Positions 3,464 through 63,064 of a stretch of 64,000 nt of DNA are shown here, piece after piece. A program made the translations under genes and the position numbers. Below the pieces are notes generated by a model that was given only the letters and a program-made list of their open reading frames with translations, did not search any database and was not told where the DNA came from. Source of the stretch: Nonlabens antarcticus (GTDB lineage Bacteria; Bacteroidota; Bacteroidia; Flavobacteriales; Flavobacteriaceae); assembly GCF_015356755.1 (NCBI RefSeq), contig NZ_JADFCO010000064.1, positions 186,001-250,000 of the forward strand, read 5' to 3'. Every line of letters starts with the position of its first letter. Position 1 is the first letter of the stretch.

Positions 3464-3479
3464 CGCTTCCGCGAAATCA
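3464..3479. repeat. degenerate copy of the CGCTTTCGCGAAAGCG palindrome
   Basis: Intergenic copy just beyond the 3' end of the Fnr-like gene, reading CGCTTCCGCGAAATCA. It is the most degraded copy in the window. Confidence 0.55.
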
Positions 3480-3484
3480 AAAAA

Positions 3485-4207
3485 TTAAGAATGACCTTGT
3501 ATCAATTGATTCAGTAATTTATTATCGATGATTTTTATGCGTTTTCCTGATGTTATAATCAAACCTTCTTTCCTGAAGTTTGTCAGCGTACGTATGAGAA
3601 GTTCTGTCGCTGTACCTACAACATCAGCGATATCAGATCTTGAAAGTTGCAAATACAAATAGCCATCCTCATCTGTTCCAAAATTGGTGTGAAGATAAAT
3701 AAGCACCTCAGCTAATCGTTGACGAACTGTTTTCTGTGCCATGTTGACAATCGTATCATCTGCGATTTTGAGTTCGCTAGCCATGTGTTTAAGAACAGCA
3801 TTAGTAAAAGCAGGGTTATCATGTAAACTATTTTCGATATGGCTTTTAGGAATAAAACAAACCTCCATGTCTTCTAGAGCAGTAGCGCTTAAGTTTGTTT
3901 GCTCAGAAGTTATCACAGATCGCTGACCTAAGATTTCACCTTTAGTAGCCAGTTTTACAATCTGTTCTTTGCCGTTGTCGCTAATTTTAGAAAGTTTTGA
4001 AATTCCATTACGCACACAAAAAACACCTGCAAGACGATCCCCTTCCTTAAAAAGCGGTTCTCCTTTTTTAAATTGTCTGGTTTCCTTACTGTCAGACATT
4101 GCTTTAAGCTCATCCTTTCTCAATGCTCTAAAGCTATGCATCTGTCTGATAATGCAGTTTTCACAACGATTGAGATCACGATTTTCCATATTTTCAAAGC
4201 TAGCCAT
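3485..4207 (-). CDS. Crp/Fnr family transcriptional regulator, Fnr-like
   Basis: Cytoplasmic DNA-binding regulator of 240 residues: cyclic-nucleotide-type beta roll (about 40-130), dimer helix, then a winged helix-turn-helix (about 185-215). Cysteines lie at 15, 18, 64 and 117. The C18-to-C117 spacing (99) equals that between C23 and C122 of E. coli Fnr, and C15/C18 mirror C20/C23, so an oxygen-sensitive Fe-S cluster is possible, although there is no counterpart of C29 unless C64 serves. The recognition helix keeps the E-x3-R pattern that contacts the GA of TGA half-sites. Divergent from ccoI and beside the cbb3 oxidase cluster, it is the obvious candidate to bind the TGACNNNNGTCA sites at 4528, 7435 and 16716. 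Confidence 0.85.
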   Translation of the reverse strand: MASFENMENRDLNRCENCIIRQMHSFRALRKDELKAMSDSKETRQFKKGEPLFKEGDRLAGVFCVRNGISKLSKISDNGKEQIVKLATKGEILGQRSVITSEQTNLSATALEDMEVCFIPKSHIENSLHDNPAFTNAVLKHMASELKIADDTIVNMAQKTVRQRLAEVLIYLHTNFGTDEDGYLYLQLSRSDIADVVGTATELLIRTLTNFRKEGLIITSGKRIKIIDNKLLNQLIQGHS

Positions 4208-4231
4208 AATTAATGGAACGGCTCACAAGTG

Positions 4232-4456
4232 TTAAGGCATGGTTTTCATAGAATGATCTTCATAAAAATCTGCGAAAGTCTTGTCAGTATGGTAATCATC
4301 TTTAAGAACTCTAATTACCGTGTAAACCAGAAGTGCTTGTCCAGCACAACTCGCATAGAATACCCAGCTGAATGGAAAATTCATAGCTGAGAAAATGACG
4401 ACGGTCAATAAAACTAAAGTCGTTATCGCTAATAAAGTGAGGGCAGAAAGTTTCAT
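4232..4456 (-). CDS. small two-helix membrane protein upstream of the Fnr-like gene
   Basis: Protein of 74 residues with two hydrophobic helices (about 5-25 and 31-50) and a charged, His/Asp-rich tail (about 52-70, with KDDYHTDKTFADFYEDH). I do not recognise a named family. It lies 24 bases upstream of the Fnr-like regulator on the same strand and is probably co-transcribed with it; its 5' end faces ccoI across a 134-base divergent promoter region. The position suggests a link to respiration or redox control, but no function can be assigned. Confidence 0.65.
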   Translation of the reverse strand: MKLSALTLLAITTLVLLTVVIFSAMNFPFSWVFYASCAGQALLVYTVIRVLKDDYHTDKTFADFYEDHSMKTMP

Positions 4457-4527
4457 AGTTTTTATTTTAAATTATAGATATAATTCCACAATACGTGCCA
4501 ACAGATTCCTAATTGTTTTGGTGCAAC

Positions 4528-4539
4528 TGACATAAGTCA
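4528..4539 (+). promoter_or_regulatory. Fnr-like operator before ccoI
   Basis: TGACATAAGTCA, an inverted repeat of TGAC half-sites. Its centre (4533.5) is exactly 33 bp upstream of the centre of a -7-like box CACCTTTG (4563-4570), the geometry of a class II Crp/Fnr activation site. The surrounding 24 bases (4522-4545) match 7429-7452 with a single difference. The site ends 51 bases before the ccoI ATG. Confidence 0.7.
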
Positions 4540-4562
4540 TGTTTTGCATCAACCATTCTCAA

Positions 4563-4570: not shown

Positions 4571-4590
4571 TACCAGGTATAGAGTAAATT

Positions 4591-7008
4591 ATGGAAAATT
4601 GTTATCACTGTGGCGACGCTTGCCGAGATACAACTATTGTGCGGAAGGATAAATTCTTCTGTTGTCAAGGTTGTAAAATGGTTTTTGACATTCTAAATGA
4701 GAATGAGCTTACCTATTACTATGATCTAGAATCTACACCCGGGAAATCACCGCTTGAGATTGCCGGACGTTATGATTTTTTAGATAACCAACCCATCATT
4801 GATCAGCTTCTGGAATTTGATGAGCAGGATACTCAGATCGTTTCTTTTACCATTCCACATATTCACTGTAGTTCCTGCATTTGGGTATTGGAAAATTTAA
4901 ATAAAATTAATCCTGCTATCAAAACTGCGCAGGTCAATTTTCCAGAAAAATCTATTCGCATTACCTACAATTCTTCTGAGGTACAGTTGAAGGAATTAGT
5001 TCTATTGCTTTGTAGGCTAGGATATGAGCCTAATATTTCATTAGAAGATTTTAATAAGAAAGAGAAAAAAATTGACAGGAGCCTAATTTACAAACTAGGC
5101 ATTGCGGGTTTTGCCTTTGGTAACATTATGTTTCTATCGTTTCCGGAATATTTTGAGGTCGATGAATTCTGGCTGCATCAATTTAAAAATATGTTCCGCT
5201 GGTTGATGTTTGCTTTTTCTCTACCGGTGGTTTTTTACTCTGGCCGTGGCTATTTTGAGTCGGCATATAAGGGGTTGAGGTCTGGAATTTTGAATATTGA
5301 TGTTCCCATTGCGATAGGTATTGCGGTTTTATTTTTAAGATCGACACTAGATATAATCATGGACTGGGGAACTGGTTTTTTTGACAGCCTCGCAGGATTG
5401 GTTTTCTTTTTATTGTTGGGTAAATTCTTCCAGCAAAAAACCTATGCATTTCTTTCGTTTGAGCGGGATTATAAATCCTACTTCCCAATCGCTGTGACCC
5501 AATTGATGCAGGAAGAAGATGGTGAGTCCGCTTTCGCGAAAGCGAAAAATCTTTCCACCCATGAACAACAAACCCCAGTTTACGAGTTAAAACCGGGACA
5601 TAGGATTTTGATACGTAACAATGAATTAATCCCAACCGATGGGATTTTAAAAGAAGGAACGGCGCTGATAGATTACAGTTTTGTAACGGGAGAAGCAGTG
5701 CCGGTCAGCAAAGTTTTAGGCGATAAAATCTATGCTGGCGGACGGCAACAGGCCGGTGTGATTGAAATGGAAGTTACTAAGGCTGTGGAACAAAGTTACT
5801 TGACACAATTGTGGAATAATGAAGTATTCAGCAAGAATAAGGCAACCACTTTTGAAAATTTAACGGACCAGATAAGCCGCCGTTTCACGATAGGAATTTT
5901 AAGTATTGCCGTGGTGGCGACCATCATCTGGTTGTTTACAAATCCGTTTACCGCATTCAATGTATTTACCGCAGTTTTAATTGTAGCCTGCCCTTGCGCC
6001 ATTGCTCTTGCGGCTCCATTTACTTTAGGGAACATGTTGCGCATTTTCGGAAAACATAAGCTCTATCTCAAGGAAAGTAGTGTGCTGGAACAAATGTCTC
6101 ATATTGATACTGTAGTGTTTGATAAAACGGGAACTCTTACCACGCATCGCCAGAATCTTATCAGTTATGAGGGGATTAATTTAACTGATGAGGAGCAAAC
6201 CGTTCTTACTAGTACCCTTAGAGCCTCAAACCATCCTTTAAGCCGTGCATTATATGACATGTTGCAGGATCAGGGTATTTGTACGCTTGATGAATTTGAC
6301 GAGCACACCGGTTCAGGAATTACAGGATCTCGAGGTAAGATCTCTGTAAAAATAGGCAGTCCAACGTTTGTGGGAAATCAAGCTCAAATGAATCCTAGTA
6401 CCAATACTCAAGTGCATATTAGTTCCAATGATCAATATAAAGGATGCTACATTTTTTATAATAATTATCGCGATGGAATGCAGCAGTTGTTTTCCAACCT
6501 AAACAGAACAGTGCAACTGGTAATTCTTTCAGGTGATAATAATGGCGAAGAAGCATTTTTAAAAACACAGTTGCCAGCAAATGCTATTTTGAAATTTAAT
6601 CAGAAACCAGACGATAAGCTACAGTTCATAAACCGTTTACAGCAAGAAGGTAAAAAAGTCATGATGGTAGGTGATGGTTTGAACGATGCCGGTGCGCTTG
6701 CACAAAGTAATGTGGGTATTGCAGTATCTGAAGATGTAAATGTGTTCTCACCCGCTTGCGACGGGATCATTGATGCTAGTAAATTAATGGATTTAGCACT
6801 GTTTATGAATCTATCACGCAGATCTATCCGCATAATTAAATATGCTTTTGTTTTCTCACTTTTTTACAATCTGATAGGTCTTGCATTTGCCGTTACAGGT
6901 AATCTAGCACCAGTTGTTGCTGCTATTTTAATGCCGCTCAGTTCTATAAGCATAGTAGTATTTACCACAATTAGCACCTACTTGATAGGTAGAAAAATAA
7001 CTCCTTAA
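4591..7008 (+). CDS. ccoI: heavy-metal (copper) P-type ATPase, CcoI/FixI type
   Basis: Inner-membrane P1B ATPase of 805 residues that supplies copper for cbb3 oxidase assembly. The order is a Cys-rich N-terminal metal-binding domain (CYHCGDAC at 4-11, CCQGC at about 28-32), an HMA-like domain with HIHCSSCIWVL (about 90-100), membrane helices, the CPCAIALAAP ion-binding helix (about 467-476), the phosphorylation motif DKTGTLT (about 511) and the hinge motif GDGLNDA (about 694). CPC indicates Cu(I) or another soft metal. It heads the cco cluster, with an Fnr-like operator upstream. A perfect copy of the 16-bp palindrome (5529-5544) encodes AFAKA in the cytoplasmic region before the actuator domain. 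Confidence 0.93.
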   Translation: MENCYHCGDACRDTTIVRKDKFFCCQGCKMVFDILNENELTYYYDLESTPGKSPLEIAGRYDFLDNQPIIDQLLEFDEQDTQIVSFTIPHIHCSSCIWVLENLNKINPAIKTAQVNFPEKSIRITYNSSEVQLKELVLLLCRLGYEPNISLEDFNKKEKKIDRSLIYKLGIAGFAFGNIMFLSFPEYFEVDEFWLHQFKNMFRWLMFAFSLPVVFYSGRGYFESAYKGLRSGILNIDVPIAIGIAVLFLRSTLDIIMDWGTGFFDSLAGLVFFLLLGKFFQQKTYAFLSFERDYKSYFPIAVTQLMQEEDGESAFAKAKNLSTHEQQTPVYELKPGHRILIRNNELIPTDGILKEGTALIDYSFVTGEAVPVSKVLGDKIYAGGRQQAGVIEMEVTKAVEQSYLTQLWNNEVFSKNKATTFENLTDQISRRFTIGILSIAVVATIIWLFTNPFTAFNVFTAVLIVACPCAIALAAPFTLGNMLRIFGKHKLYLKESSVLEQMSHIDTVVFDKTGTLTTHRQNLISYEGINLTDEEQTVLTSTLRASNHPLSRALYDMLQDQGICTLDEFDEHTGSGITGSRGKISVKIGSPTFVGNQAQMNPSTNTQVHISSNDQYKGCYIFYNNYRDGMQQLFSNLNRTVQLVILSGDNNGEEAFLKTQLPANAILKFNQKPDDKLQFINRLQQEGKKVMMVGDGLNDAGALAQSNVGIAVSEDVNVFSPACDGIIDASKLMDLALFMNLSRRSIRIIKYAFVFSLFYNLIGLAFAVTGNLAPVVAAILMPLSSISIVVFTTISTYLIGRKITP
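5529..5544. repeat. CGCTTTCGCGAAAGCG palindrome inside ccoI
   Basis: Perfect 16-bp copy, read in the frame that gives AFAKA (ESAFAKAKN) in a presumably exposed loop of the ATPase. Confidence 0.9.
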
Positions 7009-10103: not shown

Positions 10104-11074
10104 AGACAAATGCAATTCTAAGAATCATAGCTTTTGGACTGTTCGGCTATTTTTTCCTGTACTTTATTGGAACTACCGGTGAGACTTCTGCATATGTGGA
10201 GCAGCCTATTTTGTGGGCATTTTTAGCGATTCTTCTCTTAATTTACATTGCTGGAGAGGTGAGTGTAGAAGCCCTGAGCAGGATTTTGTATAAAACCTTG
10301 CCTCTTGAAAAGCAGGAGAAATATGATGTAGATATCGCTTCCGCGAAAGCGAACAGATTCCGCTGGATACGGGAAACCTACAAAAAAATGCTAGGTACCA
10401 GACCTATTGAAACGGAAGGTGAGATTGTTCTGGATCACAACTATGATGGGATACGCGAGCTGGATAACAACTTGCCGCCATGGTGGGTTTATGGATTTTA
10501 TGCTTCTATCATTTTTGCTATAGTCTATATGGCGCGCTACCACATTTTTGATGGTGTGGATCAGAATGAAGAGTATCAAATGGCCGTCGCACAAGCCGAA
10601 ATTGATATTGAAGAATACAAAAAGACCGCGAAAGACCTTATTGATTTCAATACGGTAGAAATGCTGGCAGATGTATCTGACATTAAAGCTGGAGAATCTC
10701 TATTTACCGGTAATTGCGTGGCCTGTCATAAAGTAGGTGGCGGTGGTGGTATAGGCCCAAATCTTACGGACGACCACTGGATTCTGGGCGGCGGTATTAA
10801 AAATGTTTTCAAAACGATTTCTGAAGGTGGTCGCGCTGGTAAAGGAATGGTAGCCTGGAAATCTGACATGAAACCATCAGAAATGGCGCAGGTAGCAAGT
10901 TATGTACTGTCCTTGCATGGTAGTAATCCCGCTGATGCAAAAGAAGCAGAAGGAGAAATCTGGCTAGACCCTAATGCCCCTGTGGAAGAGATTCAAGTCA
11001 AAGTTATCGACAGCTCAAAGATTGAAGTAATGATCGAGGATCAACCCGTTACTGGAAATGTGATAGATAAATAA
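10100..11074 (+). CDS. ccoP: cbb3-type oxidase subunit III, membrane cytochrome c (CcoP)
   Basis: Membrane-anchored c-type cytochrome passing electrons to CcoNO. There are N-terminal helices at about 5-55, the CcoP-type segment with NLPPWWVYGFYASIIFA (about 128-144), then one cytochrome c domain: CVACH at about 205-209, GPNL, and GMVAWKSDMKP with Met ligand candidates. Proteobacterial CcoP carries two hemes; this one shows a single CxxCH motif, as in other Bacteroidota. A one-mismatch palindrome copy (10336-10351) encodes ASAKA near residue 81. Confidence 0.92.
   Translation: MKTNAILRIIAFGLFGYFFLYFIGTTGETSAYVEQPILWAFLAILLLIYIAGEVSVEALSRILYKTLPLEKQEKYDVDIASAKANRFRWIRETYKKMLGTRPIETEGEIVLDHNYDGIRELDNNLPPWWVYGFYASIIFAIVYMARYHIFDGVDQNEEYQMAVAQAEIDIEEYKKTAKDLIDFNTVEMLADVSDIKAGESLFTGNCVACHKVGGGGGIGPNLTDDHWILGGGIKNVFKTISEGGRAGKGMVAWKSDMKPSEMAQVASYVLSLHGSNPADAKEAEGEIWLDPNAPVEEIQVKVIDSSKIEVMIEDQPVTGNVIDK
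10336..10351. repeat. palindrome copy inside ccoP (one mismatch)
   Basis: CGCTTCCGCGAAAGCG, read as ASAKA in CcoP between its N-terminal helices and the conserved WWVYGF region. Confidence 0.85.
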
Positions 11075-15264: not shown

Positions 15265-16641
15265 TTAAACCGTCATGGAAAACAATCGTGTTTCCGGCTT
15301 TTTACGCTGGAGTCTTAAATCAAAAGGTAGACACACATTACGTACATAAGGTTTTCCAGCTTCGGTAATTTTCAATCGTTGATCACCTATTTTAATTAAT
15401 CCGTCAGATTCCATTTCTGAAAGTTGGTTCAGAATTTCTGCAATTTGCGGAATTTGTAAATCTTCTGATTCCCACGATGTTTCGAAATGGCACATTAAAT
15501 TTAAAATATGACGGCGAATGATTAAGTCTTCAGCGTTAAGTAAATGGCCGTGTTGAATAGGCAAATGATCGTTTCTAAGCAGCTCATAATATTCCTTCAA
15601 TGTCTTTACATTTTGCGCAAAGCCATACCAACTATCTCCTATTGCAGATACTCCTAATCCTATCATAATCTCAGTTTTTGAAGCAGTATACCCCATAAAG
15701 TTACGATGAAGTGTTTGCCTCTCTAAAGCTTTTGAAAGGTCATCAGTTGGTAAGGCAAAATGATCCATTCCTATCTCGAGATAACCTGCGTTTAATAATA
15801 GCTGCTTTCCTTTCTCATATTGCCGTCGCTTTTGATCAGCCGAGGGTAAATCGGCATCATTATAGCCTCGTTGACCATTGCCTTTAATCCATGGCACGTG
15901 AGCATAGCTGTAATAAGCGATGCGATCTGGTATCAATTTTATAGTTTGGTTTATGGTATGCTCGACATGCTCCATAGTTTGAAAAGGAAGTCCAAAAATA
16001 ATATCATGTCCCACAGACGTATAACCGGTTTCTCGAGCCTGGACCGTAGCCTGCTCTACATTTTCAAACGGCTGGACACGGTTGATTGCTATCTGTACCG
16101 TTTCATTATAATCTTGAACGCCGTAACAAACCCTTGTAAAACCATTACGGTTTAAGGTTATTAGATGCTCTCGGGTTGTATTATTAGGGTGTCCTTCAAA
16201 GCTAAATTCTGCATTTTGTGCTTTATCTGCTACTTTGAAAATCCCCATCAAAAGCCCTTCTAGATTCTCCGCTGAAAAGAAGGTGGGAGTCCCACCACCT
16301 AGATGTAGTTGCTGGATTATTAGTGGATTCCCCAGCGCTTTTCTATACATAGCTAGCTCCTTTAAAAGGGCTTTAATGTAGGGGATTTCTACTGTGTGAT
16401 TTTTAGTGATTCGTTTTGTACAACCGCAAAAAGTGCACATACTTTCACAAAATGGTAGGTGAATGTAGAGGCTGATACTGGTGGGTTTTCCGCTTTTGCG
16501 AAAGCAAAATCCTTTCAACAAACTATCCTTCCATCCATCAACGGTAAAATCTTCCTTTTCCCAATAAGGCACCGTTGGATAGCTGGTATAACGCGGTCCG
16601 GGAACGTTATATTTTGAAATTAAATATGATTCATTTTTCAT
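15265..16641 (-). CDS. hemN: oxygen-independent coproporphyrinogen III oxidase
   Basis: Radical SAM enzyme that decarboxylates coproporphyrinogen III to protoporphyrinogen IX without oxygen, supplying heme under low oxygen. The 458-residue length is typical of true HemN. The cluster motif C65-x3-C69-x2-C72 (FCESMCTFCGC) is followed by the HLGGGTPTF glycine motif (about 118-126) and a C-terminal HemN domain. It has an Fnr-like operator and a clear -7 box upstream, tying it to the same regulon as the cbb3 genes. A degenerate palindrome copy (16491-16506) encodes the segment around CFRKS (46-50). Confidence 0.93.
   Translation of the reverse strand: MKNESYLISKYNVPGPRYTSYPTVPYWEKEDFTVDGWKDSLLKGFCFRKSGKPTSISLYIHLPFCESMCTFCGCTKRITKNHTVEIPYIKALLKELAMYRKALGNPLIIQQLHLGGGTPTFFSAENLEGLLMGIFKVADKAQNAEFSFEGHPNNTTREHLITLNRNGFTRVCYGVQDYNETVQIAINRVQPFENVEQATVQARETGYTSVGHDIIFGLPFQTMEHVEHTINQTIKLIPDRIAYYSYAHVPWIKGNGQRGYNDADLPSADQKRRQYEKGKQLLLNAGYLEIGMDHFALPTDDLSKALERQTLHRNFMGYTASKTEIMIGLGVSAIGDSWYGFAQNVKTLKEYYELLRNDHLPIQHGHLLNAEDLIIRRHILNLMCHFETSWESEDLQIPQIAEILNQLSEMESDGLIKIGDQRLKITEAGKPYVRNVCLPFDLRLQRKKPETRLFSMTV
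16491..16506. repeat. palindrome copy inside hemN (two mismatches)
   Basis: CGCTTTTGCGAAAGCA; on the coding strand it is read in the third possible frame (CFRKS instead of AFAKA or LSRKR). Confidence 0.7.
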
Positions 16642-17517: not shown

Positions 17518-18963
17518 ATGAATGTTTATTGGTTCAAACGTGATTTCAGATTAACAGATCTAGAAGGATTAAGCTCTTTTTCAAATAATGATGAGGATCT
17601 TTTGCTTGTTTATATTTATGAGCCGTGGATCTGGGAAGACTCTCATTACTCGCGCCGACATCTAGATTTCATAAAAGAGTCGTTGACTGATATGAATTCT
17701 CAACTAGAACCTTATAACACACAGATTTTAGCAGTCAGTTGCAACGCATTGGACTTTTTTGAAAGGCTTAACGATATCGAGCAGATCACTGCTGTACATA
17801 GCAGTGTTGAAACTGGTTTAGACATCACTTACAAACGAGACAAAAAGGTAAAAAACTTTTTTACAGATCATAAAATAGTCTGGAAGGAGTTCCAAACTAA
17901 TGGTGTTTTTAGAGGTATTAAAAATCGGGATACATGGAGCAAGGACTGGTTCAATTATATGAATCAGGAAGTTTGTTATGTAGATCTTAAAAAGTTCGCT
18001 TTCGCGAAAGCGGATAGATTTTTTAAAAAATTCACACCGCTGGATTTGAGAACTAAACATGGAAAGTTTCAATTAGGTGGTTCCACTCAAGGGCAAAAAT
18101 GGATGGATAGTTTCTTTGAAATCCGCTTGAAGGATTACAGTAAGCTCATTTCTAAACCCTTGCTGTCTAGATATGGTTGCAGCCGACTGTCTCCCTATAT
18201 TTCATGGGGAAATATATCAATACGCTAGCTTTACCAACGAGCTAAAGCAGAAAAAGAACATAGTAATTATAAAAAATCGCTTAACGCTTTCAATAACAGA
18301 TTGCGCTGGCAAAGCCATTTTATTCAGAAATTTGAGCAGGAACCACGTATGGAGTTTGAAGCGATTAATAAAGGGTATCTGAAATTAGACCAGCCTTTTA
18401 ACCAAGAGTTTGTAATTGCATGGAAAAACGGAGCTACTGGTTATCCACTGGTTGATGCATCTATGCGAGCAGTGCGGGTAACCGGATACATTAATTTTAG
18501 AATGCGCAGTTTAGTGACCTCCTTTTTATGTCATCATTTATTTCAACATTTTACTACCGGCAGTGATTATCTCGCTGCGCAATTTTTAGACTGGGAACCC
18601 GGGATTCACTATGGACAGTTTCAAATGCAAGCTGGACTCACGGGAACAAATACATTACGCATCTATAATCCTACAAAGGGAGCACACGATCACGATGCAG
18701 ATGCTTTGTTCATTAAACATTATGTAAGGGAACTATCCCATTTATCGCCTCGATATGCTATTGAACCTTGGCTGTTAGACGAAGAGTTGCATGAATTTCA
18801 GGATTTTAATTATGGTGTCGATTATCCACGACGGATTGTAGATATCAGTGAGACTAGAGAAATAGCACTAGAGAAAATTTATGGACTTAGAAAAGATCCA
18901 TTAACACAAAAAGAAAAAGTAAGAATACTGGCTGCACATTCTATGAAGCGTAGAGATCAATGA
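17518..18963 (+). pseudogene. deoxyribodipyrimidine photolyase family gene interrupted by an in-frame amber codon
   Basis: Flavin-dependent blue-light DNA repair enzyme family. The N-terminal half (17518-18225) has the alpha/beta antenna domain (VYWFKRDFRLTD at residues 3-14) and reaches SPYISWGNISIR. A TAG at 18226-18228 then interrupts, and the same frame continues with LYQRAKAEKEHSNYKKSLNAF and the whole FAD-binding half (DASMRAVRVTGYINFRMRS, LDWEPGIHYGQFQMQAG) to 18963. Family members have Gln after SIR, so a single CAG-to-TAG change explains the break; full length would be 481 codons. It overlaps the next photolyase gene by four bases. A palindrome copy at 17997 encodes AFAKA. Sequencing error or readthrough are alternatives. 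Confidence 0.85.
17997..18012. repeat. CGCTTTCGCGAAAGCG palindrome inside the photolyase pseudogene
   Basis: Perfect copy, read as AFAKA (KKFAFAKADRF) in the linker between the antenna and FAD domains. Confidence 0.9.
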
Positions 18964-22241: not shown

Positions 22242-24342
22242 CCTGTGCTTGTATGGCCGTCACAATAACGGTGTTAAAAATATCATCAACGGTACAACCC
22301 CTGCTCAGGTCGTTGACCGGTTTGTTCAATCCCTGGATAATTGGGCCTATGGCGAGCGCTTTGGTCTCCCGCTGCACGGCTTTGTAGGTATTATTACCGG
22401 TATTCAAATCTGGGAAAATGAACACATTTGCTTGGCCTGCGACTTCAGAATCGGGCATTTTTGCCTTGCCCACGCTCATGTCAACCGCTGCATCGTACTG
22501 GATGGGGCCTTCCACCTTCAAATCGGGTCGTTTTTGCTTCACGATTGCGGTGGCTTCCCGCACGCGCTCCACATCTTCGCCTACTCCAGAGCTGCCTGAA
22601 GAGTAGGAGAGCATCGCGATTTTAGGGTCAATCCCAAATGCTTTGCTGGTCGCCGCAGACGATATGGCGATCTCTGCAAGCTGCACTGCTGTTGGGTTGG
22701 GGTTGATCGCACAGTCACCATAAACGGACACGCGATCTTCCAGACACATAAAGAATACAGAGGATACGATCGATGCATCAGGCCTGGTTTTGATAAATTG
22801 CAATGCTGGCAAAATGGTGTGCTGCGTGGTGTGCACGGCGCCAGAGACCATCCCGTCTGCCTTGCCCTGATAGACCATCATCGATCCATAATAGGACACG
22901 TCTTCCATTAAATCCCGTGCCATGGCGAGATTTACATTCTTGTGCTTTCTTAACTCGTATAACGCTTTCGCGAAAGCGGAAAAGTCTTCACTCTCAGCGG
23001 GATAAACGACATTTACTTTATTCAGGTCAAGCCCTAAATCTAGCGCTGCAATCTTCTCTGCGATCTCTTTTCTATCGCCCAAAAGTGTGATTTGCACAGC
23101 ATCGATATCTGTCAATTGCTTGGTCGCTCTTAATATGCGCTCGTCCATTCCCTCAGGCAAAACGATGTGTTTCTTGTGTGCGGTGGCTCTTTTCAACAAA
23201 TTATACTGAAACATCCTGGGTGTAATGCTATCGGTTTTGAAGGTGATCAAACGCTCCACCAGCGCATCGACATTTATATATTGTTCAAAATCCTTTACAG
23301 AAGTTTCAATTTTTTGAGTGTTTGCCGCATAGATCTGGGATTTGATATCGCCTATGGTATTTGTGACCTTAAAAGTGCCCTCTTGTACAGAAATAATGGG
23401 AACCACATCAGTCAGTCCCTCAATCAGTTTGTTGATGGAATCTTCTGGAACCAGCCCGCCAGTCAACACAATACCCGATATGGACGGATAGTTTGCCGAG
23501 CTGTGCGCTTGTAATGCACCCAGAATTATATCGGCTCGATCGCCGGGCGTTATCACCAGGCCGTTCTCCTTCAAATGGGTTAAATAATTGCGCAACTGCA
23601 TCGCACCAACGCTGAAATATCCGGCCTGATTGTTTAAATAAGCTTCGCCAAATAGCACTGTTCCATCCAGTGCCTCCACGATTTCCTTTATCGACGGATT
23701 TGCCAAAATAGGGTTGAGGGGTATAGCATTAACGATCACATCGCTAGGCAGAATCTTCTGCAATGCGCTAATAATCGGTTCCCGATTTTCTGTTTGAACC
23801 TTATTAGCAATAACCGACAAAACCTCTACGCCCTTATCCCGAAAAGAGTCAAATGCAATCTGTAGGCTCCCCACTAAATCTTCAAAAGATTTCCCCACAC
23901 CACTTGCTAGAATTATCGCCGGGACACCTAGGTTTTTAGCAATCATCAGATTGACATCAAATTCAATGAGCGATCCTTCCCCAGAAAAACTGGTGCCTTC
24001 AATCAGCACATAATCAAAGCGTTCTTCCATCGCCTTATATTTCTCAATAATCCGGCTTATGATCTGATCCTCCCGATTCAAATTCTTCAATCGGATCACC
24101 TCGCCACGCTGGAAGGCATAGGCATCCTCAAACTTGAGGTCCAGATTAAAGTGGGAAGTAATGGTGTTGATATGGTTATCGATTTCCCCTTTCTTAAAGT
24201 CATCAATAATGGGCCTGAAATAACCCACTTTGGCCGTTTTGCCCAACAGCAATTTCATAAGCCCCAGCGAAATAATAGACTTCCCGCTATGGGGTTCAAT
24301 GGTGGTAATGTAGATCGCCTTGTTAGTTTGCAGTTGCGCCAT
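22228..24342 (-). CDS. pta: phosphate acetyltransferase, long form
   Basis: Converts acetyl-CoA and phosphate to acetyl phosphate, upstream of AckA. The 704-residue long form has an N-terminal P-loop-like domain (TIEPHSGKSIISLGLM, about 14-29), a central DRTGG domain (about 215-330) and the catalytic PTA_PTB domain from about 385 (LPEGMDERILRA, about 402-413; SYSSGSSGVGEDVERVREA, about 600-618). By eye its base composition is richer in G+C than flanking genes. A palindrome copy (22963-22978) encodes AFAKA in the catalytic region. Confidence 0.96.
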   Translation of the reverse strand: MAQLQTNKAIYITTIEPHSGKSIISLGLMKLLLGKTAKVGYFRPIIDDFKKGEIDNHINTITSHFNLDLKFEDAYAFQRGEVIRLKNLNREDQIISRIIEKYKAMEERFDYVLIEGTSFSGEGSLIEFDVNLMIAKNLGVPAIILASGVGKSFEDLVGSLQIAFDSFRDKGVEVLSVIANKVQTENREPIISALQKILPSDVIVNAIPLNPILANPSIKEIVEALDGTVLFGEAYLNNQAGYFSVGAMQLRNYLTHLKENGLVITPGDRADIILGALQAHSSANYPSISGIVLTGGLVPEDSINKLIEGLTDVVPIISVQEGTFKVTNTIGDIKSQIYAANTQKIETSVKDFEQYINVDALVERLITFKTDSITPRMFQYNLLKRATAHKKHIVLPEGMDERILRATKQLTDIDAVQITLLGDRKEIAEKIAALDLGLDLNKVNVVYPAESEDFSAFAKALYELRKHKNVNLAMARDLMEDVSYYGSMMVYQGKADGMVSGAVHTTQHTILPALQFIKTRPDASIVSSVFFMCLEDRVSVYGDCAINPNPTAVQLAEIAISSAATSKAFGIDPKIAMLSYSSGSSGVGEDVERVREATAIVKQKRPDLKVEGPIQYDAAVDMSVGKAKMPDSEVAGQANVFIFPDLNTGNNTYKAVQRETKALAIGPIIQGLNKPVNDLSRGCTVDDIFNTVIVTAIQAQDDSF
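22963..22978. repeat. CGCTTTCGCGAAAGCG palindrome inside pta
   Basis: Perfect copy, read as AFAKA (DFSAFAKALYEL) in the catalytic domain, probably in a surface loop or helix start. Confidence 0.9.
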
Positions 24343-24567: not shown

Positions 24568-26295
24568 CTAACGTTCTTGAAACCTTAAAATCTCATCAAT
24601 CATAGGTTGCATCTTCTCGTCTATAAAACACTCTAGAATAGCATCTACTCCATGAATGGAGCCTTTAGTGTTGCGACCTACACTGTAAAGACCACTAACA
24701 ATCTGATCATCTACAACATGATTACCAGTGGTAGTCACTTGTATTCCTAGATCATCTACATACTTCTGGCCAAGATGACGATCAATTATGGATATCATTA
24801 GTTCATCATCCAGATCGTCCGCGTTAGGTCTTGCGAGCACGCTATCAATCATGGCATCGCAAATAATAGATTTTGATTCTTTCACTATTTCATATCCATC
24901 TCTTACAAGCTTAATTTCAGGATTACTGACAAATTCAAGCCTCAATATCCCAGCTTCTTGTAAAGCAACCAACTCTAATATACTTTTAACCGGCGGGCCA
25001 AAACTATAGCGCTTTGCCTTATCGTTCAGAATGATGAAATCCTTGACAATATCCTTTGGTAATAATCGGTAGGAGTATAAATAATAGAGATCAATTTGAA
25101 TCATGCGCCATACTTGACCAATCGTGTAATCTAGGGAAAATGGATGTTTCCCATGTGACATTTTACAAGTCAATTTCATATAATCAAGCGCGGGCATTTT
25201 CGTATTAATAATATGCTCGCTTTTTGTGGATTGATCTTTTAACCAGGCTATAATTAATTCTATTCCTTTTATGGGATCTAATTTTTCGTTAGCATAGTTC
25301 GATTCAAAGCCATTATAAATGCGTATTGTTAATTGCGCTACCAGTTTGAGAATATCATCTACACATTTAATCTTGTTCTCATGGATATCGTTTTTCAGTT
25401 GCACCAGCATCCGTTCCTTTCCAGCAGCAACCACATCAAAATAATCGTCAATTTTTTTACCTACCGGCTTGGGAACCATCGGTAACCCATCAAGGGAAAA
25501 AGGAATAATTTGGATAGCAACATCGCCTTTATATTTCAAGCGATAATCATTTTCAACTTCTTCAAAACTCCCTGGTTGATGACTCATTATCATTCCCACG
25601 ACATCAATCATGGCTAGGCCGAACCCTTTTATAGCTATATGCTTAGAATTATGGTAGATGGCACTGGCCGCGGCTGTATAGATCTTATTATTAAAATCAC
25701 AGTTTGTTTCCCTAGCATGCTCTTGAAATTCTAGGTTCTGTCTCGACGAATTATTTGATAAATGACCCAGTGCGAGAATTACATGAGTAGACCCATAGTG
25801 AGAACTACTGGTAGTAGACAACTCAATCTTTCCATCACGTTTAGCAAGTTTCTGTACTCGTTCTTTAACGATGGTAATAAGTCCTAATTTCTCTAAAGGT
25901 TCAACAATGGTTTTGGCACGTTGTTGTAAATAAGCTCCGGTAATTTTTCTCAGGGAAAATGAATCTTTCTCTGAGTTAATTTCTACATCATGTTCAACAG
26001 CGAGCCATTGTAAATAATTGGGAAATGAAGGAAAACGAACCCCTTGAATTTCAAACTCTGGTCGTCCATCAAAAGTTTCCAGTGCACGGTCAGATATATT
26101 ACTGACATTTGTTTCTGATTGTCTAGGATCCCATGCCAGCCCAGTTCCCAAGATGTCATGAGGTTCAAATAATAAGATTTTATAGTGCAAATAATCAACT
26201 ATTCGCTTTCGCGAAAGCGAAATAAAATAAAGTTCCAATGCATGCAGTCCTCTGGCTCCACAACCTACGATGGATAAATGATAAAATTCCTTCAT
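24568..26295 (-). CDS. FAD/NAD(P)-binding protein
   Basis: Predicted flavoprotein of 575 residues. The N-terminal dinucleotide-binding motif (SIVGCGARGLHALEL, about 8-22) and the LLFEPHDILGTGLAW segment (about 46-60) match the FAD-NAD(P)-binding family with PF13454-type N-termini, whose substrates are mostly unknown. The C-terminal end has GLYSVGRNTKGSIHGVDAI, a flavoprotein-like closing motif. It appears to be a single-gene unit. A palindrome copy (26204-26219) encodes LSRKR close to the first helix (residues 27-31). Confidence 0.75.
   Translation of the reverse strand: MKEFYHLSIVGCGARGLHALELYFISLSRKRIVDYLHYKILLFEPHDILGTGLAWDPRQSETNVSNISDRALETFDGRPEFEIQGVRFPSFPNYLQWLAVEHDVEINSEKDSFSLRKITGAYLQQRAKTIVEPLEKLGLITIVKERVQKLAKRDGKIELSTTSSSHYGSTHVILALGHLSNNSSRQNLEFQEHARETNCDFNNKIYTAAASAIYHNSKHIAIKGFGLAMIDVVGMIMSHQPGSFEEVENDYRLKYKGDVAIQIIPFSLDGLPMVPKPVGKKIDDYFDVVAAGKERMLVQLKNDIHENKIKCVDDILKLVAQLTIRIYNGFESNYANEKLDPIKGIELIIAWLKDQSTKSEHIINTKMPALDYMKLTCKMSHGKHPFSLDYTIGQVWRMIQIDLYYLYSYRLLPKDIVKDFIILNDKAKRYSFGPPVKSILELVALQEAGILRLEFVSNPEIKLVRDGYEIVKESKSIICDAMIDSVLARPNADDLDDELMISIIDRHLGQKYVDDLGIQVTTTGNHVVDDQIVSGLYSVGRNTKGSIHGVDAILECFIDEKMQPMIDEILRFQER
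26204..26219. repeat. CGCTTTCGCGAAAGCG palindrome inside the FAD/NAD(P)-binding gene
   Basis: Perfect copy, read in the LSRKR frame rather than AFAKA. Confidence 0.9.
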
Positions 26296-27834: not shown

Positions 27835-27850
27835 CGCTTTCGCGAAAGCA
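27835..27850. repeat. intergenic palindrome copy (one mismatch)
   Basis: CGCTTTCGCGAAAGCA, 28 bases beyond the aminotransferase stop codon and outside any gene. Confidence 0.85.
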
Positions 27851-39800: not shown

Positions 39801-40348
39801 AATACCAGAGTGGATTCTCCGTCCTTTAACTTTACCGTATACTCTCCATCAAAATTTGTTACCGCTCCCAGATTAGTTCCTTCTACAGTCACGCTCACGC
39901 CTGCCAGTGGCATTCCCGACGGATCTTTAACGATACCAGTGATGATCTTTTCGGGCATTTTCAGATCGACATATTTATAAGGACTTGATTTTATAATAAT
40001 CGTGTTTTTGTCCGATAGACTCACGCTAAAGTTGCCGCCTTTTAAACTCGCGTTGAGAAGATCATTTGCTTTAACGGTGCCTTTCTTGAGGTTCACTTTC
40101 GCGAAAGCGTTAAATATTCCTTCTTGGTACACAAAACGATAATCCGTTTGTTCCATAATTAGATCAAACACCTCGTCCACCGTGATGGTTTTGTTCCTAT
40201 CTATCTTAACAGTAGTGTTTTGCGACGTCACCGTTTCTGGAGTAAATCCGAAAGCAGAAATGCAAAAAAGAAAAAGAAAACTTCTCATAGTGAAGAGCAT
40301 TAGTTTTTTTCGAGGCTTGAAAAAAACACTCGGTGGTTTAATTTCCAT
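36857..40348 (-). CDS. SusC/RagA family TonB-dependent outer-membrane transporter with STN domain
   Basis: TonB-dependent channel of 1163 residues. After a signal peptide (about 20-43) comes an STN signalling domain (about 50-118), which lets the receptor talk to the FecR/ECF pair encoded upstream. Next come a carboxypeptidase-regulatory-like domain (IITGIVKDPSGMPLAGVSV, about 134-152), the plug (about 225-350, with VLKDAAATSIYGSRGANGVI) and a 22-strand-type barrel ending in Phe (LGLQVQF). A palindrome copy (40094-40109) encodes AFAKV within the STN domain. It is the main importer of this locus. Confidence 0.96.
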   Translation of the reverse strand: MEIKPPSVFFKPRKKLMLFTMRSFLFLFCISAFGFTPETVTSQNTTVKIDRNKTITVDEVFDLIMEQTDYRFVYQEGIFNAFAKVNLKKGTVKANDLLNASLKGGNFSVSLSDKNTIIIKSSPYKYVDLKMPEKIITGIVKDPSGMPLAGVSVTVEGTNLGAVTNFDGEYTVKLKDGESTLVFSYLGYKTERAVVEQTTVINITMQEDFAQLEGIVLIGYGEQKREDVTGAVSSIDTKELVQSATGSIGFDKALGGLVKGVNVSQSSGRPGSPVRINVRGITSPLSSNGLNQPLFVIDGVPFNLDAIGGTNPLLTLDPTNIESFDVLKDAAATSIYGSRGANGVIIIQTKKGKRNQKPRISTSFTTTIAEPINTVDALNGPQYRAFYDLLVNNSVNAINTGQLDAFTAFDLGNVANVDLDFGTFQATNNGLRDDVFGTANTDWNKEVFRSAAITKQANVGLLGGSENTNYSMNLAFIDQEGLTVKDELQQYTLGMSLDSDINDFIKVGSTINVSYSDAKNGENTVLDQFTVNTSIARARPDLPVYDEDGNLLAQPDYQFGFETFEPNPLMRLGNKTRNKAYNFIGNTYLEIEPIKSLKIKADVNAAVFNTNNSSFIPGFTQTNFGFGDNDSFLFEDRSTVSNITTNLTANYNFSFGDHRMSALAGAAWDRTNFDTNTQFYSGFPDEDILINGSSAENVLGYSSSRRESGLNSLFSRVTYAYKNLYNATVNFRTDTSSKFGPGNKRAYFPSLSTSWNIANEEFLSENESINDLKIRASVGQVGSTNVSDFVYLQFFETNSSDIYNGSSAIVANNTFPNKDIGWEETSEVNLGLDFGFFNSRLRGSIDVYSRKTEGALVNTPIALELGPNTYFANFIDVTNKGVELGIGGDIIQTEDFTWSARANWSLNRNKLVKLNGASINPFQLDFFVEGEPVGTIKGYKVAGIFQSQDEVDAANAGSATGLYDQLSTGIGDFKYVDVNGDGQITADDRTIIGDIESSFFGGISNTFTYKNFSLTSLFQYSVGGESIWNAIPQEAFNALGPNKYSEYALNTWTPENTDARYARALYFDPSQSSRVSDRYLFDNSYLRLKSLQLTYNFNQATMQKMGVENLRLLLTGSNLVTWTKWPGLDPESFSERGGITSQTGNDDPYPLAKSFSLGLQVQF
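40094..40109. repeat. palindrome copy inside the SusC STN domain (one mismatch)
   Basis: CACTTTCGCGAAAGCG, read as AFAKV at about residues 81-85, in the STN domain itself rather than in an obvious linker. Confidence 0.85.
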
Positions 40349-43140: not shown

Positions 43141-43156
43141 CGCTTTCGCGAAAGTA
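43141..43156. repeat. intergenic palindrome copy upstream of the hsdM remnant (two mismatches)
   Basis: CGCTTTCGCGAAAGTA, 22 bases upstream of the hsdM start codon. Confidence 0.8.
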
Positions 43157-50295: not shown

Positions 50296-50311
50296 TGCTT
50301 TCGCGAAAGCG
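50296..50311. repeat. intergenic palindrome copy before the AAA ATPase gene (one mismatch)
   Basis: TGCTTTCGCGAAAGCG, about 70 bases upstream of the preferred ATPase start. Confidence 0.85.
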
Positions 50312-50383: not shown

Positions 50384-51460
50384 ATGATCTTTTCAAAGAA
50401 GAAAAACCAAGCTGCCATTCCAGATCTTTCCGTGGTGGGCTCAGGAATACACGGCGAGTTCCTCAGCCATAAAAGGCTTTATGTTCAAATTACTGGACAG
50501 ATACCCAATTCCATTGCAGAGTCAGAGATCGACGTAGAGCGATTTAAACTCTTGTTTCTAAAAACTTACCAGCAGCAGTGTTGGAATAGCTATTACAACA
50601 GGAGAGCTTTTGATAGTCATGAGATTTCAAAGTATGATGACGTTTATTACTTCTTATTAAAAGATGTATTGGTTTACTTAAATCATAGGAGCGAAGACGT
50701 CCACATCCTTTTCTCGCAGACGCAGTATAAATACGTCAGCAGGATCCATAAACTATTACTAACCTGCATGAAACCTAAGGAAATGGATAAGCCATTCATT
50801 AACATCATGAATACTGGTCGTAATGGGCTTGAACTTACCCGGCTAGAAATCAAGCGCACAGATCTTGAGATAGAAACACACTATAATGATGATTTCCTGC
50901 AGGCAGATCGCACCATCAAAAAACGATTAAACAAAGACATGGATAAGGGAATCATTCTCTTGCACGGCGAGCCTGGAACAGGGAAGACGACCTACATCAA
51001 GCACTTGATCGCGCAAGTGAACAAGGATGTGATCTTCATGCCGCCTAACATTGCAGCAGACCTTACCAGTCCAGCCTTGATGACACTATTGCTTGATAAG
51101 CCCAATAGCATTCTAGTCATAGAAGATGCAGAAAATATTGTCACCAGTCGAGACCATCAGGGTAATTCACCAGTGAGCGCGATCCTAAATCTGTCTGATG
51201 GGATCTTATCTGATTGCCTGAATATCCAGATCATCTGCTCCTTCAATACAGATTTAAAAAATGTGGACAAGGCATTATTACGCAGAGGCAGGTTAATTGC
51301 TAAATATGAATTTGGCAAGCTGGATGTAGAAAAGTCAAACTCGCTTTCGCGAAAGCTCGGATTCGACAGACTTTTTACAGAGCCACAAATTTTGACTGAC
51401 ATCTTCAATCAGGAAGAGCAGACCTTCCAAAAACTAGAACGCAGGGCGATAGGATTTTGA
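50384..51460 (+). CDS. AAA family ATPase
   Basis: A 358-residue protein from the ATG at 50384; an earlier in-frame ATG (50327) would add 19 unlikely residues. The N-terminal half (about 1-170) is a helical domain I do not recognise. The C-terminal half is an AAA module with Walker A GEPGTGKTT (about 198-206), Walker B ILVIEDAE (about 246-253), sensor 1 and an arginine-rich RRGRL (about 303-307). No nuclease motif is seen. A palindrome copy (51342-51357) encodes LSRK near the end. It heads a same-strand run of WYL, DUF262 and DUF2779 genes and may be a motor of that system, though it could be an independent gene. Confidence 0.85.
   Translation: MIFSKKKNQAAIPDLSVVGSGIHGEFLSHKRLYVQITGQIPNSIAESEIDVERFKLLFLKTYQQQCWNSYYNRRAFDSHEISKYDDVYYFLLKDVLVYLNHRSEDVHILFSQTQYKYVSRIHKLLLTCMKPKEMDKPFINIMNTGRNGLELTRLEIKRTDLEIETHYNDDFLQADRTIKKRLNKDMDKGIILLHGEPGTGKTTYIKHLIAQVNKDVIFMPPNIAADLTSPALMTLLLDKPNSILVIEDAENIVTSRDHQGNSPVSAILNLSDGILSDCLNIQIICSFNTDLKNVDKALLRRGRLIAKYEFGKLDVEKSNSLSRKLGFDRLFTEPQILTDIFNQEEQTFQKLERRAIGF
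51342..51357. repeat. palindrome copy inside the AAA ATPase gene (one mismatch)
   Basis: CGCTTTCGCGAAAGCT, read as LSRK (NSLSRKLGF). Confidence 0.85.
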
Positions 51461-59600: not shown

Positions 59601-59648
59601 TCGAATTTTATATATATATTTAGTTAAATATAACCAAAAAACCTTTTT

Positions 59649-60053: not shown

Positions 60054-60054
60054 G

Positions 60055-60452
60055 TGGAGTCGGAGGGATTCGAACCCTCGTCCAAACGAGTGATTTCATC
60101 GCTTTCTACATGTTTAGTTTCCATTTAATTTCAGTCGTTACACCGGTTAGAAACTACCAAAGCAACGCTTGTCTTCAATTGAGTTTCTCCCCAACATCAA
60201 AGCCCTGATGAGGATAGGTCTATATTTACGAATTCTCTAAATCAAATGCCATAAACCAAGGCCTTTGAGAGAATTCCTGCTTGTCCCGCCTTGCGGGACC
60301 GAGGCATTATCCTACTGTAATTCGGATTATGCAGCTAGGGCGTAGTTGTTCTCGCCGTTTAAAAAAGTTGAATCATGATATTTAAGAGCTATGTTCCAGC
60401 GCTCTACATGCTTACAATCAACTCAGTCTCGCTGTCAAAACCAGTCGACCCC
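60055..60452 (-). ncRNA. ssrA: transfer-messenger RNA
   Basis: Rescues stalled ribosomes by adding a degradation tag. The 5' end GGGGTCG pairs with CGACTCC at the 3' end to form a seven-pair acceptor stem with one G-U pair. The T-arm GGGTTCGAATCCC lies next to the 3' end, and the CCA does not appear to be encoded. The tag frame (60356 down to the TAA at 60327-60329) encodes GENNYALAA, the Flavobacteriia-type tag. A stable hairpin (CCCGCC/GGCGGG-like, about 60287-60302) is one of the pseudoknot stems. Length is about 398 bases. A terminator follows directly. Confidence 0.95.
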
Positions 60453-61154: not shown

Positions 61155-61203
61155 CCTGGTGTCTTTAAATAGGTGTTACATGTTATTCTTTTATTAATTG
61201 AAC

Positions 61204-61231
61204 AAAAACCCCAGCTCGCGCCAGGGTTTTT
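61204..61231. terminator. bidirectional terminator between convergent genes
   Basis: Inverted repeat AAAAACCC / GGGTTTTT with a 12-base loop. It lies between the stop at 61154 (+) and the stop at 61281 (-). Confidence 0.65.
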
Positions 61232-61280
61232 AAACTGGAAAGGACAAAGCCTAGCCAGCCGCGCTTATAGGGGAAGCACT

Positions 61281-61676
61281 TTATTTTACGATCAAAATAT
61301 TGTCGGTCGCAGTGGGGTTCAATGGACAGAAATAGTAATATTCTCCGGCAGTCAGCTTAGTCGCTTTTGATTTTCCAGTTGTATTATTTGCCACTGGAGC
61401 GGTGACATAGGCCGTTTTAATATGGTTTTCCGCATTTGTAATATCCTGCCCTTTTTTAACGAGGACAAAACCTACATCATGACCTACATCCTTGTTATTA
61501 ACGGCAAAAATATAAGTGCCAGCATCCACCGTTATCTCCTTTTTAGTAAACTCGCCAGGTGTTTGTTCAAGAGTGATTAAGGGTGTTTTTTTAGAGAATT
61601 TCTTCATTTTTTCTTGAGCTTGAGCGCTGAAAGCACCTACAAGAACTAGAGTGATAATTGCAATGAATTTTTTCAT
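61281..61676 (-). CDS. secreted cupredoxin-like protein
   Basis: A 131-residue protein with a signal peptide (about 1-20, ending AQAQ) and a cupredoxin-type beta barrel: ITVDAGTYIFAVNNKDVGHDVGFVLVKK (about 49-76) with a His in the first-ligand position and YYYFCPLNPTATDN (about 112-125) with a Cys. The second His and the Met that normally follow this Cys are absent (CPLNPT instead of CPxH-type), so a classical blue copper site is unlikely. It may be a structural relative, bind metal differently, or act in electron transfer with a partner. Single gene. Confidence 0.8.
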   Translation of the reverse strand: MKKFIAIITLVLVGAFSAQAQEKMKKFSKKTPLITLEQTPGEFTKKEITVDAGTYIFAVNNKDVGHDVGFVLVKKGQDITNAENHIKTAYVTAPVANNTTGKSKATKLTAGEYYYFCPLNPTATDNILIVK

Positions 61677-61822
61677 GAGTGTTTATTTTAATGATTATTG
61701 ATGTGCAAAGATGCCGCTGTACATACCTTTTATATAAGTACTTTTTTCCCCAACACTTTCCGGTTTTTCCCGATTTTGATCTCTCACCGCAGCATCTCAA
61801 TCCTTATCTTGCTAGTCTTTAA

Positions 61823-63064
61823 ATGACCATTATGAAATTTGCCTTGATCCAGGAACGCAAGAATCCCCCTGACCGCCGTGTCGTTTTATCACCATTGCAG
61901 GCAGCTGGATTTGAGTCCGCTTTCGCGAAAGCGGAATTACTAGTAGAATCCTCACCTATAAGAATATTTGAAGACGCTTCTTATAGCAATGAAGGACTCA
62001 CAGTAACAGCCGACGTTTCTCACGCTGATGTCATGATAGGCGTGAAGGAGGTTCCAGTCAATGCATTAATACCAGAAAAGAAATACTTTTTCTTCTCACA
62101 CACCATTAAAAAACAACCCTACAACCGCGACCTACTGCGTGCTATTTTAGATCGGAAAATTGAACTCTACGATCATGAAACAATAGTGGATGAGAACAAT
62201 AGCAGGCTTATAGGCTTTGGCCGTTATGCAGGTCTAGTAGGCGCATATAATGCATTCAGAGCATTGGGACTGCGAGATGAACTGTTTCAATTGCCTAAAG
62301 TAAACGATCTTGCCGACTTTGAATCAGTCAAAAAAGAGTTGCTAAAAATTAAGGCTGAGCTGCCACCCATTAACATAATTGCTACGGGAACTGGTAAGGT
62401 CGCAGGAGGAATCCGTGAGATACTTGAGGTTTTAGAAATACATGAACTGACACCTAAAGAATTTTTACAGTTAGCCCATTTCAAAAATGAACAGACGGTA
62501 TTCACGCAATTAGATGTGGAAGATTATTACGTTAGAAAAGATGGCCTAAAACCCACAAAAACAGAATGCTATAATAATCCTGAACTGTTAGAATCTGACT
62601 TTAAAAAGTTTTCTGCGGTTGGAGATTTATTAATTACAGGTCATTTTTATGGTGATGGTGCACCTTACTTTTTTACAAAAGAAGATATTAAATCTGATCA
62701 ATTCAATATTTCATTAGTAGCAGATGTTAGTTGTGACATTGATGGACCTATAGCTTGTACGATTAGATCTTCTACGATTGAAAACCCGCTGTATGGCTAC
62801 GATCCAATGACCGAAAAGGAAGTTGCGTTTAAAACACCAAGGTCTATTACAGTCATGGCAGTGGACAACTTGCCTTGTGAATTGCCTAAGGATGCGAGCG
62901 AGGGATTTGGTGAGATGTTTCTAGAACACGTGTTCCCAGCTTTTTTCAACAATGATGCAGACGGTATTTTAGAAAGAGCAAGAATGACCACTCCAGAAGG
63001 AACACTTACACCACGATTTTCCTATTTAGAAGACTATGTAAACGAGGCGAAAACCAAGTTTTAA
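61823..63064 (+). CDS. saccharopine dehydrogenase-like NAD(P)-dependent enzyme (AlaDh/PNT N-terminal type)
   Basis: A 413-residue enzyme (an ATG three codons later is an equally possible start). The N-terminal domain (KFALIQERKNPPDRRVVLSP, about 5-24) is of the alanine dehydrogenase / transhydrogenase type. The dinucleotide site INIIATGTGKVAGGIREIL (about 182-200) departs slightly from GxGxxG. The family includes lysine-forming saccharopine dehydrogenases (LYS1) and close relatives; the exact substrate is not certain. A perfect palindrome copy (61918-61933) encodes AFAKA at about residues 33-37. It appears to be transcribed alone. Confidence 0.8.
   Translation: MTIMKFALIQERKNPPDRRVVLSPLQAAGFESAFAKAELLVESSPIRIFEDASYSNEGLTVTADVSHADVMIGVKEVPVNALIPEKKYFFFSHTIKKQPYNRDLLRAILDRKIELYDHETIVDENNSRLIGFGRYAGLVGAYNAFRALGLRDELFQLPKVNDLADFESVKKELLKIKAELPPINIIATGTGKVAGGIREILEVLEIHELTPKEFLQLAHFKNEQTVFTQLDVEDYYVRKDGLKPTKTECYNNPELLESDFKKFSAVGDLLITGHFYGDGAPYFFTKEDIKSDQFNISLVADVSCDIDGPIACTIRSSTIENPLYGYDPMTEKEVAFKTPRSITVMAVDNLPCELPKDASEGFGEMFLEHVFPAFFNNDADGILERARMTTPEGTLTPRFSYLEDYVNEAKTKF
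61918..61933. repeat. CGCTTTCGCGAAAGCG palindrome inside the saccharopine dehydrogenase-like gene
   Basis: Perfect copy, read as AFAKA (FESAFAKAELL), replacing an early helix region of the N-terminal domain. Confidence 0.9.

Follow-up and report, generated by a model that had tools for sequence, protein, structure and literature searches.

The 64,000-nucleotide stretch of Nonlabens antarcticus DNA analysed here (contig NZ_JADFCO010000064.1, positions 186,001 to 250,000; hereafter the window) contains 15 copies of CGCTTTCGCGAAAGCG, a 16-base palindrome with G or C at 10 of its 16 bases. All 15 copies listed in an earlier note on this DNA were verified at their coordinates: six are perfect, six have one mismatch, two have two mismatches and one has three. 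Dinucleotide shuffles of the window gave an expectation of 0.08 matches within three mismatches, and 15 matches were reached in 0 of 100 shuffles. Eleven of the 15 copies lie within open reading frames (ORFs) and, as the note had described, they use all three frames, being read as AFAKA in seven cases (two of them varied), as LSRK or LSRKR in three and as CFRKS in one.

Along the window (coordinates are unstranded), the first copy is the degenerate one with three mismatches, located between convergent ORFs (3464..3479). It is followed by a perfect copy in a heavy-metal P-type ATPase gene (5529..5544, SAFAKA), where the site is also present in the Dokdonia sinensis orthologue, with a 5-residue indel immediately before it, and by a one-mismatch copy in a ccoP-like gene (10336..10351, IASAKA), where D. 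sinensis carries the site at the identical place. The two-mismatch copy in hemN (16491..16506) is read in the CFRKS frame, the same frame as in D. sinensis (L191 near 3697), and a 2-residue indel adjoins it in the alignment, a case suggesting that sites are retained when the sequence around them changes in length. Perfect copies are found in a photolyase-domain gene (17997..18012, FAFAKA), in a phosphate acetyltransferase gene (22963..22978, SAFAKA) and in a FAD/NAD(P)-binding gene (26204..26219, SLSRKR); for the last of these, a 47% identical protein of genome G019 carries a site at the matching position, next to a 2-residue indel. The acetyltransferase site shows zero or one mismatch across the other orthologues retrieved from palindrome-rich genomes (hereafter carriers) and no gap relative to non-carriers; the gene itself (22228-24342) looks accessory in Nonlabens, with matches at E 1e-100 in 9 of 23 genomes. 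Further copies, with one mismatch unless stated otherwise, lie in an intergenic region (27835..27850), in an M16 peptidase gene (32485..32500, TLSRKL), close to the 5' end of the M16 peptidase gene (34125..34140, perfect, SAFAKA), in a SusC/RagA-family gene (40094..40109, NAFAKV), in an intergenic region (43141..43156, two mismatches), in the intergenic sequence upstream of an AAA ATPase ORF (50296..50311), in the AAA ATPase gene itself (51342..51357, SLSRKL) and in a gene encoding an AlaDH/PNT N-terminal domain (61918..61933, perfect, SAFAKA), which aligns without gaps to two Flavobacterium relatives. The window also contains a Flavo-1 RNA (RF01705; 13081-13167, 47.3 bits) and, on the minus strand, a tmRNA with the tag GENNYALAA (60052-60452).

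The palindrome recurs throughout the genome, with 480 exact copies in 3.27 Mb (147 per Mb) compared to 0 for the reversed word used as a control; the note's expectation of copies elsewhere in the genome is thus borne out, and so is its description of a highly iterated palindrome, in the plain sense of these words. The other Nonlabens genomes (22 genus members) have 180-737 exact copies each, and in a set of 59 genomes that includes those 22, no copies were found in 35. Of 397 Flavobacteriaceae genomes, 104 contain the 12-base core one or more times, and only six reach 100 copies, namely, four Nonlabens (586-685), D. sinensis (G250; 917) and G234 (445), the next-highest count being 21; the exact 16-mer is present in 44 of 349 family genomes. 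Within this sample, the palindrome-rich genomes are those of Nonlabens, D. sinensis and one further Flavobacteriaceae genus (G234). In a tree of AddB, the 12 carriers fall on one side of a branch whose support is not firm (70/94.9), and a carrier clade without G234 is likewise not rejected (approximately unbiased test, p = 0.26). Three low-count genomes for which every copy was listed show clustering: all 12 copies of G120 lie on one contig, within a span of 75 kb, and one contig holds 9 of the 13 copies in G330 and 9 of the 11 in G095, with the remainder on two other contigs each. The clusters of G120, G330 and G095 have a common spacing of 4,330 bases; five stretches of other low-count genomes were also inspected. 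No other GC-bearing iterated palindrome was prominent in pooled sequences of other genera, a limited data set drawn largely from one orthologous region, and no description of CGCTTTCGCGAAAGCG in these genera was found in the Creative Commons-licensed part of PubMed Central, where papers containing TTTCGCGAAA were judged by the title and the start of the abstract.

The numbers of exact, one-mismatch, two-mismatch and three-mismatch copies are 89, 22, 0 and 4 in G019 (420 kb), 37, 12, 6 and 4 in G020, 51, 10, 17 and 12 in D. sinensis, and 15, 22, 14 and 10 in G234. Perfect copies thus outnumber singly mismatched ones in G019, G020 and D. sinensis, the exceptions being the window (6 vs. 6) and G234 (15 vs. 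22). Single mismatches in Nonlabens are concentrated at half-site positions 1 or 6 (40 of 47), and those in G234 at the end base (21 of 22), a pattern suggestive of a dialect. The palindrome forms the centre of a larger symmetric element (about 50 bp), in which arms of about 18 bases on each side are G/T-rich and C-poor in the 5' direction and carry T at intervals of three bases. T is favoured at −2, −3, −6, −9 and −12 and A or T at −4, and C is scarce to about −18, the pattern being mirrored on the 3' side. The acetyltransferase copy exemplifies the layout (22945..22996, an 18-base arm, the 16-base palindrome and an 18-base arm), the arms being a statistical consensus by which this copy was not judged singly. 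Arms are seen around the 173 copies from Nonlabens and the 61 from D. sinensis, and less strongly around the 39 from G234; at −1, the predominant base is T for Nonlabens and A for D. sinensis. Among 97 non-coding copies, the frequencies of T at −6, −9 and −12 are 0.51, 0.54 and 0.60, compared to 0.32-0.46 at neighbouring positions, and the three-base phase is not seen at −15 or −18, so that it cannot be due to codons alone and has a limited reach. Half of all arms outscore 98.5% of random 18-mers, and among 234 copies, none has both arms below the random mean and 6% have one arm below it, although these values are somewhat optimistic because nearly the same copies had served to train the score.

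With ORFs called simply by length, 97 of the 234 copies fall outside ORFs, compared to 9.9% of the sequence (4.2 times the expectation); under a stricter ORF call on fewer stretches, the corresponding figures are 46 of 104 copies and 14.2% (3.1 times). The remaining 137 copies are distributed unevenly among the three frames, with AFAKA in the lead (86/30/21). Intergenic densities are similar between tandem, convergent and divergent genes (1.08, 0.77 and 0.80 per kb, respectively). Close pairs are avoided in four of the five data sets: pairs less than 2 kb apart number 12 vs. 39.7 expected in G019, 6 vs. 17.2 in G020, 8 vs. 24.9 in D. sinensis and 4 vs. 9.2 in G234. Over the first 61 copies listed for one contig, the coefficient of variation of the spacing is 0.67 (p = 0.00065), and each of 20 sampled stretches of the G019 chromosome contains 2-10 copies of up to three mismatches. 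The conserved arms, the avoidance of close pairs and the sharing of the palindrome by the genus and two further genera go beyond the earlier note.

That note had also proposed that the palindrome inserts into proteins and resembles a minimal mobile element, and comparison of orthologues, the check that it had suggested, does not support this part. At the phosphate acetyltransferase site, 28 sequences align without gaps. Among 858 comparisons with non-carriers, 849 showed no site and no gap, five an indel (all at one locus) and four the site (all on one mobile island); comparisons among carriers yielded 126 sites, 16 indels and 10 cases without the site, the acetyltransferase gene dominating both sets of counts. 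Of the six distinct loci with a chromosomal non-carrier relative, five are gap-free and one is mixed. At one site, which encodes RLSRKL, Winogradskyella relatives have RLSRRL or RLSRKL without the DNA palindrome, that is, the peptide without the repeat, which the note had named as an outcome that speaks against it. Because relatives without the repeat mostly align gap-free, the copies arose, at the loci open to comparison, by point substitution. Once present, they keep their positions: all eight site pairs in alignable stretches have zero or one mismatch per copy at 73-87% overall identity (four of the eight are the acetyltransferase site, leaving five distinct loci). Between Nonlabens and G234, few sites are comparable, and these are mostly unshared. 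Single mismatches fall at inner positions in 6 of 13 cases on islands in non-carriers vs. 7 of 47 (p = 0.025; exact vs. imperfect copies, p = 0.055), a weak hint that carriers maintain the sites.

Copies were also found in 41 stretches of viral contigs, and the three contigs that were checked all have tail, head, portal or terminase genes. Tailed phages from metagenomes (L142, L147 and L152) carry the palindrome, L142 having two exact copies, in portal-like and terminase ORFs. The arms of 33 distinct viral copies, from contigs of at most 50% G+C, are similar to the chromosomal ones (T at −2, −3, −6 and −9, 0.65, 0.59, 0.50 and 0.59), except that T at −12 is no higher than its neighbour, and some of these copies come from related phages; lone copies on viral contigs rich in G+C are probably due to chance. 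Neither of the Nonlabens phages P12024S and P12024L (35 kb each), whose annotations include the recombination proteins ERF and YqaJ, contains the palindrome, even when three mismatches are allowed. A segment of a genome from a non-carrier genus (G120:C3:30000-109999, L163-L166) contains 24 palindromes of up to two mismatches in its 80 kb; it encodes CusA/CusB-like efflux proteins, P-type ATPases and a multicopper oxidase, and looks like a mobile island of copper/silver-type resistance. Four of its sites recur at the same protein positions in related G019 genes (L100). Within the N. antarcticus genome itself, a 52.8-kb stretch (G000:C58:46000-98800) has no copy within two mismatches and only two three-mismatch hits. 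Its genes include BREX components (BrxC, PglZ), an OLD-like/UvrD pair, which we take to be Gabija-like, a ThiF protein and a conjugation coupling protein, and the stretch is probably a recent defence island.

Hundreds of copies at conserved, well-spaced places, embedded in a fainter, extended signal, look like a recognition mark for some DNA-handling machinery. We consider it most likely, at rather less than even weight, that the site is recognised in DNA uptake and/or recombination and works like an uptake signal, because this set of features matches that reported for the uptake signal sequences (USS) and DNA uptake sequences (DUS) of other bacteria. According to parts of PMC1626085, USS are distinguished from ordinary regulatory sites by a strong consensus and a non-insertion origin. 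Under the uptake or recombination reading, an element of about 50 bp, arisen by point substitution, would be held in place by selection or molecular drive; a sequence-specific factor, dimeric or two-fold-symmetric, would recognise it during uptake and/or homologous recombination, with the symmetry conferring independence from orientation. DNA bearing the site would then be preferentially taken up or recombined, such that copies would accumulate in resident DNA (the chromosome, resident mobile islands and some phages) and would be lacking in newly arrived DNA. A more specific version, which we put forward as a conjecture that is unlikely to hold in full, is a bidirectional uptake or recombination signal of a new type, the first in Bacteroidota, with two G/T arms in triplet phase; a machine peculiar to these genera would read it in both directions, and phages and mobile islands would have adopted it.

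Several observations weigh against a role in uptake or recombination. The type IV pilus ATPase family (PF00437) is missing in 11 of 12 carriers and present in 2 of 18 non-carriers; the core is palindromic, whereas known USS and DUS cores are polar; and the density, roughly 70-230 per Mb, is below the one per kb of those signals. USS/DUS membership is not claimed, given the palindromic core and the missing pilus ATPase family. Furthermore, the consensus is less sharp in D. sinensis and G234 than in Nonlabens, only 6 of the 15 copies in the window are exact, close pairs are not avoided within the window itself (3 vs. 2.7 expected), and a symmetric element fits a homodimeric structural DNA-binding protein as well. 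A portion of the table in PMC7965970, covering three species, contains A-rich words only. No factor that tracks the carriers was found among ParB, the two methylase families examined, RecC, AddB and the pilus ATPase. Competence in Riemerella, also of the Flavobacteriaceae, requires, according to parts of PMC8459023, ComEC, DprA, ComF and RecA along with proteins without known counterparts.

Among the alternatives, the most serious, albeit unlikely, is that the palindrome is bound by a nucleoid or chromosome-organising protein, a homodimer coating or bridging the DNA at intervals of a few kb, an idea that the earlier note had raised and that we retain. The sites of Noc and ParB are 14-16 base palindromes spread on the chromosome, and the perfect two-fold symmetry, the symmetric arms, the occurrence of copies in every sampled G019 stretch and the avoidance of close pairs are all in keeping with such a function. 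However, redundant sites should tolerate many imperfect copies, and these make up only 26 of 115 in G019, yet 39 of 90 in D. sinensis. Moreover, carriers do not share an additional ParB-family protein: all 30 genomes encode a ParB of about 300 amino acids, further copies occur in 3 of 12 carriers and 3 of 18 non-carriers, and when one Nonlabens, D. sinensis and G234 were compared with 12 others, the DNA-binding region was nearly alike, with small differences, one of which is shared with a non-carrier. The ParB counts and the DNA-binding region thus do not support a carrier-specific or switched ParB/Noc-like paralogue.

A Chi-like recombination hotspot, read by AddAB and active from both sides by virtue of being palindromic, is also doubtful as an explanation. 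In such a scheme, the 5' G/T-rich, triplet-phased arm would be the RecA-loading strand, and RecA prefers GT-rich DNA; on either strand, the arms are indeed G/T-rich and C-poor in the 5' direction, and non-coding copies show an excess of T at −6, −9 and −12. An AddB-type PDDEXK_1 nuclease is present in 30 of 30 genomes and RecC in 0 of 30, and the copy-free phages P12024S and P12024L are those with ERF and YqaJ, whereas other tailed phages carry copies. However, AddAB also occurs in non-carriers and so does not, by itself, explain the restriction of the palindrome to carriers; with RecC absent and AddB universal, neither accounts for it. In addition, known Chi sites are only 5-8 bases long and are polar.

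A highly iterated palindrome (HIP) made and kept by methyltransferase-dependent repair, as modelled for the cyanobacterial HIP1, appears improbable. The palindrome is iterated and has a CpG-containing core, and its end position is among the most variable, together with position 6; deviations from HIP1 are likewise end-biased, according to parts of PMC4390886. However, the C5 methylase family PF00145 is absent in 6 of 12 carriers, including N. antarcticus itself, the N6/N4 methylase family PF01555 is absent in 4 of 12, with a weak partial match in G002, and G008 and G010 lack both; the earlier note had also suggested a methylase site, and neither of these two families is universal in carriers. 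By the HIP criteria in the same parts of PMC4390886, namely, 1000-2000 copies per Mb and at least 75% G+C, with one exception of 50% G+C that merely supplements HIP1, HIPs are shorter, G+C-richer and denser than the palindrome analysed here, which has 147 copies per Mb and G or C at 10 of 16 bases.

A minimal mobile element, or an insertion of the repetitive extragenic palindrome or Rickettsia palindromic element type (REP/RPE-like), is very improbable: many cores are near-identical and some sites adjoin indels between orthologues (P-type ATPase, HemN), but alignments with relatives that lack the site are mostly gap-free, positions are conserved, and the arms are degenerate rather than copied, which rules out insertion at five of the six comparable loci, with one mixed. 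We give hardly any credence to an RNA hairpin, terminator or other transcript signal, for although the core is self-complementary as RNA and the first two flanking bases pair slightly above expectation (0.57 vs. 0.44 and 0.65 vs. 0.57), 137 of 234 copies lie within ORFs, the three classes of intergenic regions are alike in density and no Rfam match was found at the sites. Extension of a hairpin by the arms was rejected (true flanks fold no better than swapped ones at 30 bases and about 1.8 standard deviations better at 15), as were terminators and promoters, no orientation preference being observed.

Sequence-specific uptake is known from Pasteurellaceae and Neisseriaceae. If the uptake or recombination reading is true, such a signal in Flavobacteriaceae, palindromic, flanked by arms and used in the absence of the customary pilus ATPase, would represent independent evolution and would offer a handle on DNA exchange among these bacteria. 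Regardless of the mechanism, several hundred sites that are for the most part perfect and conserved in position offer an accessible target for biochemical work, and places where the word is clustered may mark DNA passed on horizontally from these genera.

Among known systems, Noc and ParB sites differ from the palindrome in sequence and in half-site spacing, and the copies here are far more numerous. The likeness to Chi consists of the possible GT-rich upstream strand and the presence of AddAB, and the density of Chi in Escherichia coli is similar to that of the palindrome; however, Chi is a short, polar, octamer-like word, unlike a 16-base palindrome. HIP1 (GCGATCGC) is also, according to parts of PMC4390886, an iterated palindrome found in and outside genes, with symmetric extensions and variable end bases, but the palindrome here is twice as long, lower in G+C and several to more than 10 times rarer, with long arms, and PF00145 and PF01555 are not universal in its carriers. 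With USS and DUS, as described in parts of PMC1626085 and PMC3630211, it shares an excess of perfect copies, origin by substitution, preference for non-coding sequence and more regular spacing (PMC1626085), along with the lack of a gene-orientation preference, flanking motifs (in Pasteurellaceae), weaker end positions and dialects (PMC1626085; PMC3630211). In contrast to the USS of Pasteurellaceae and the DUS of Neisseriaceae, it is palindromic, 16 bases long, flanked by symmetric arms and about 4-14 times sparser, and its carriers, which are Bacteroidota, mostly lack the type IV pilus ATPase family.

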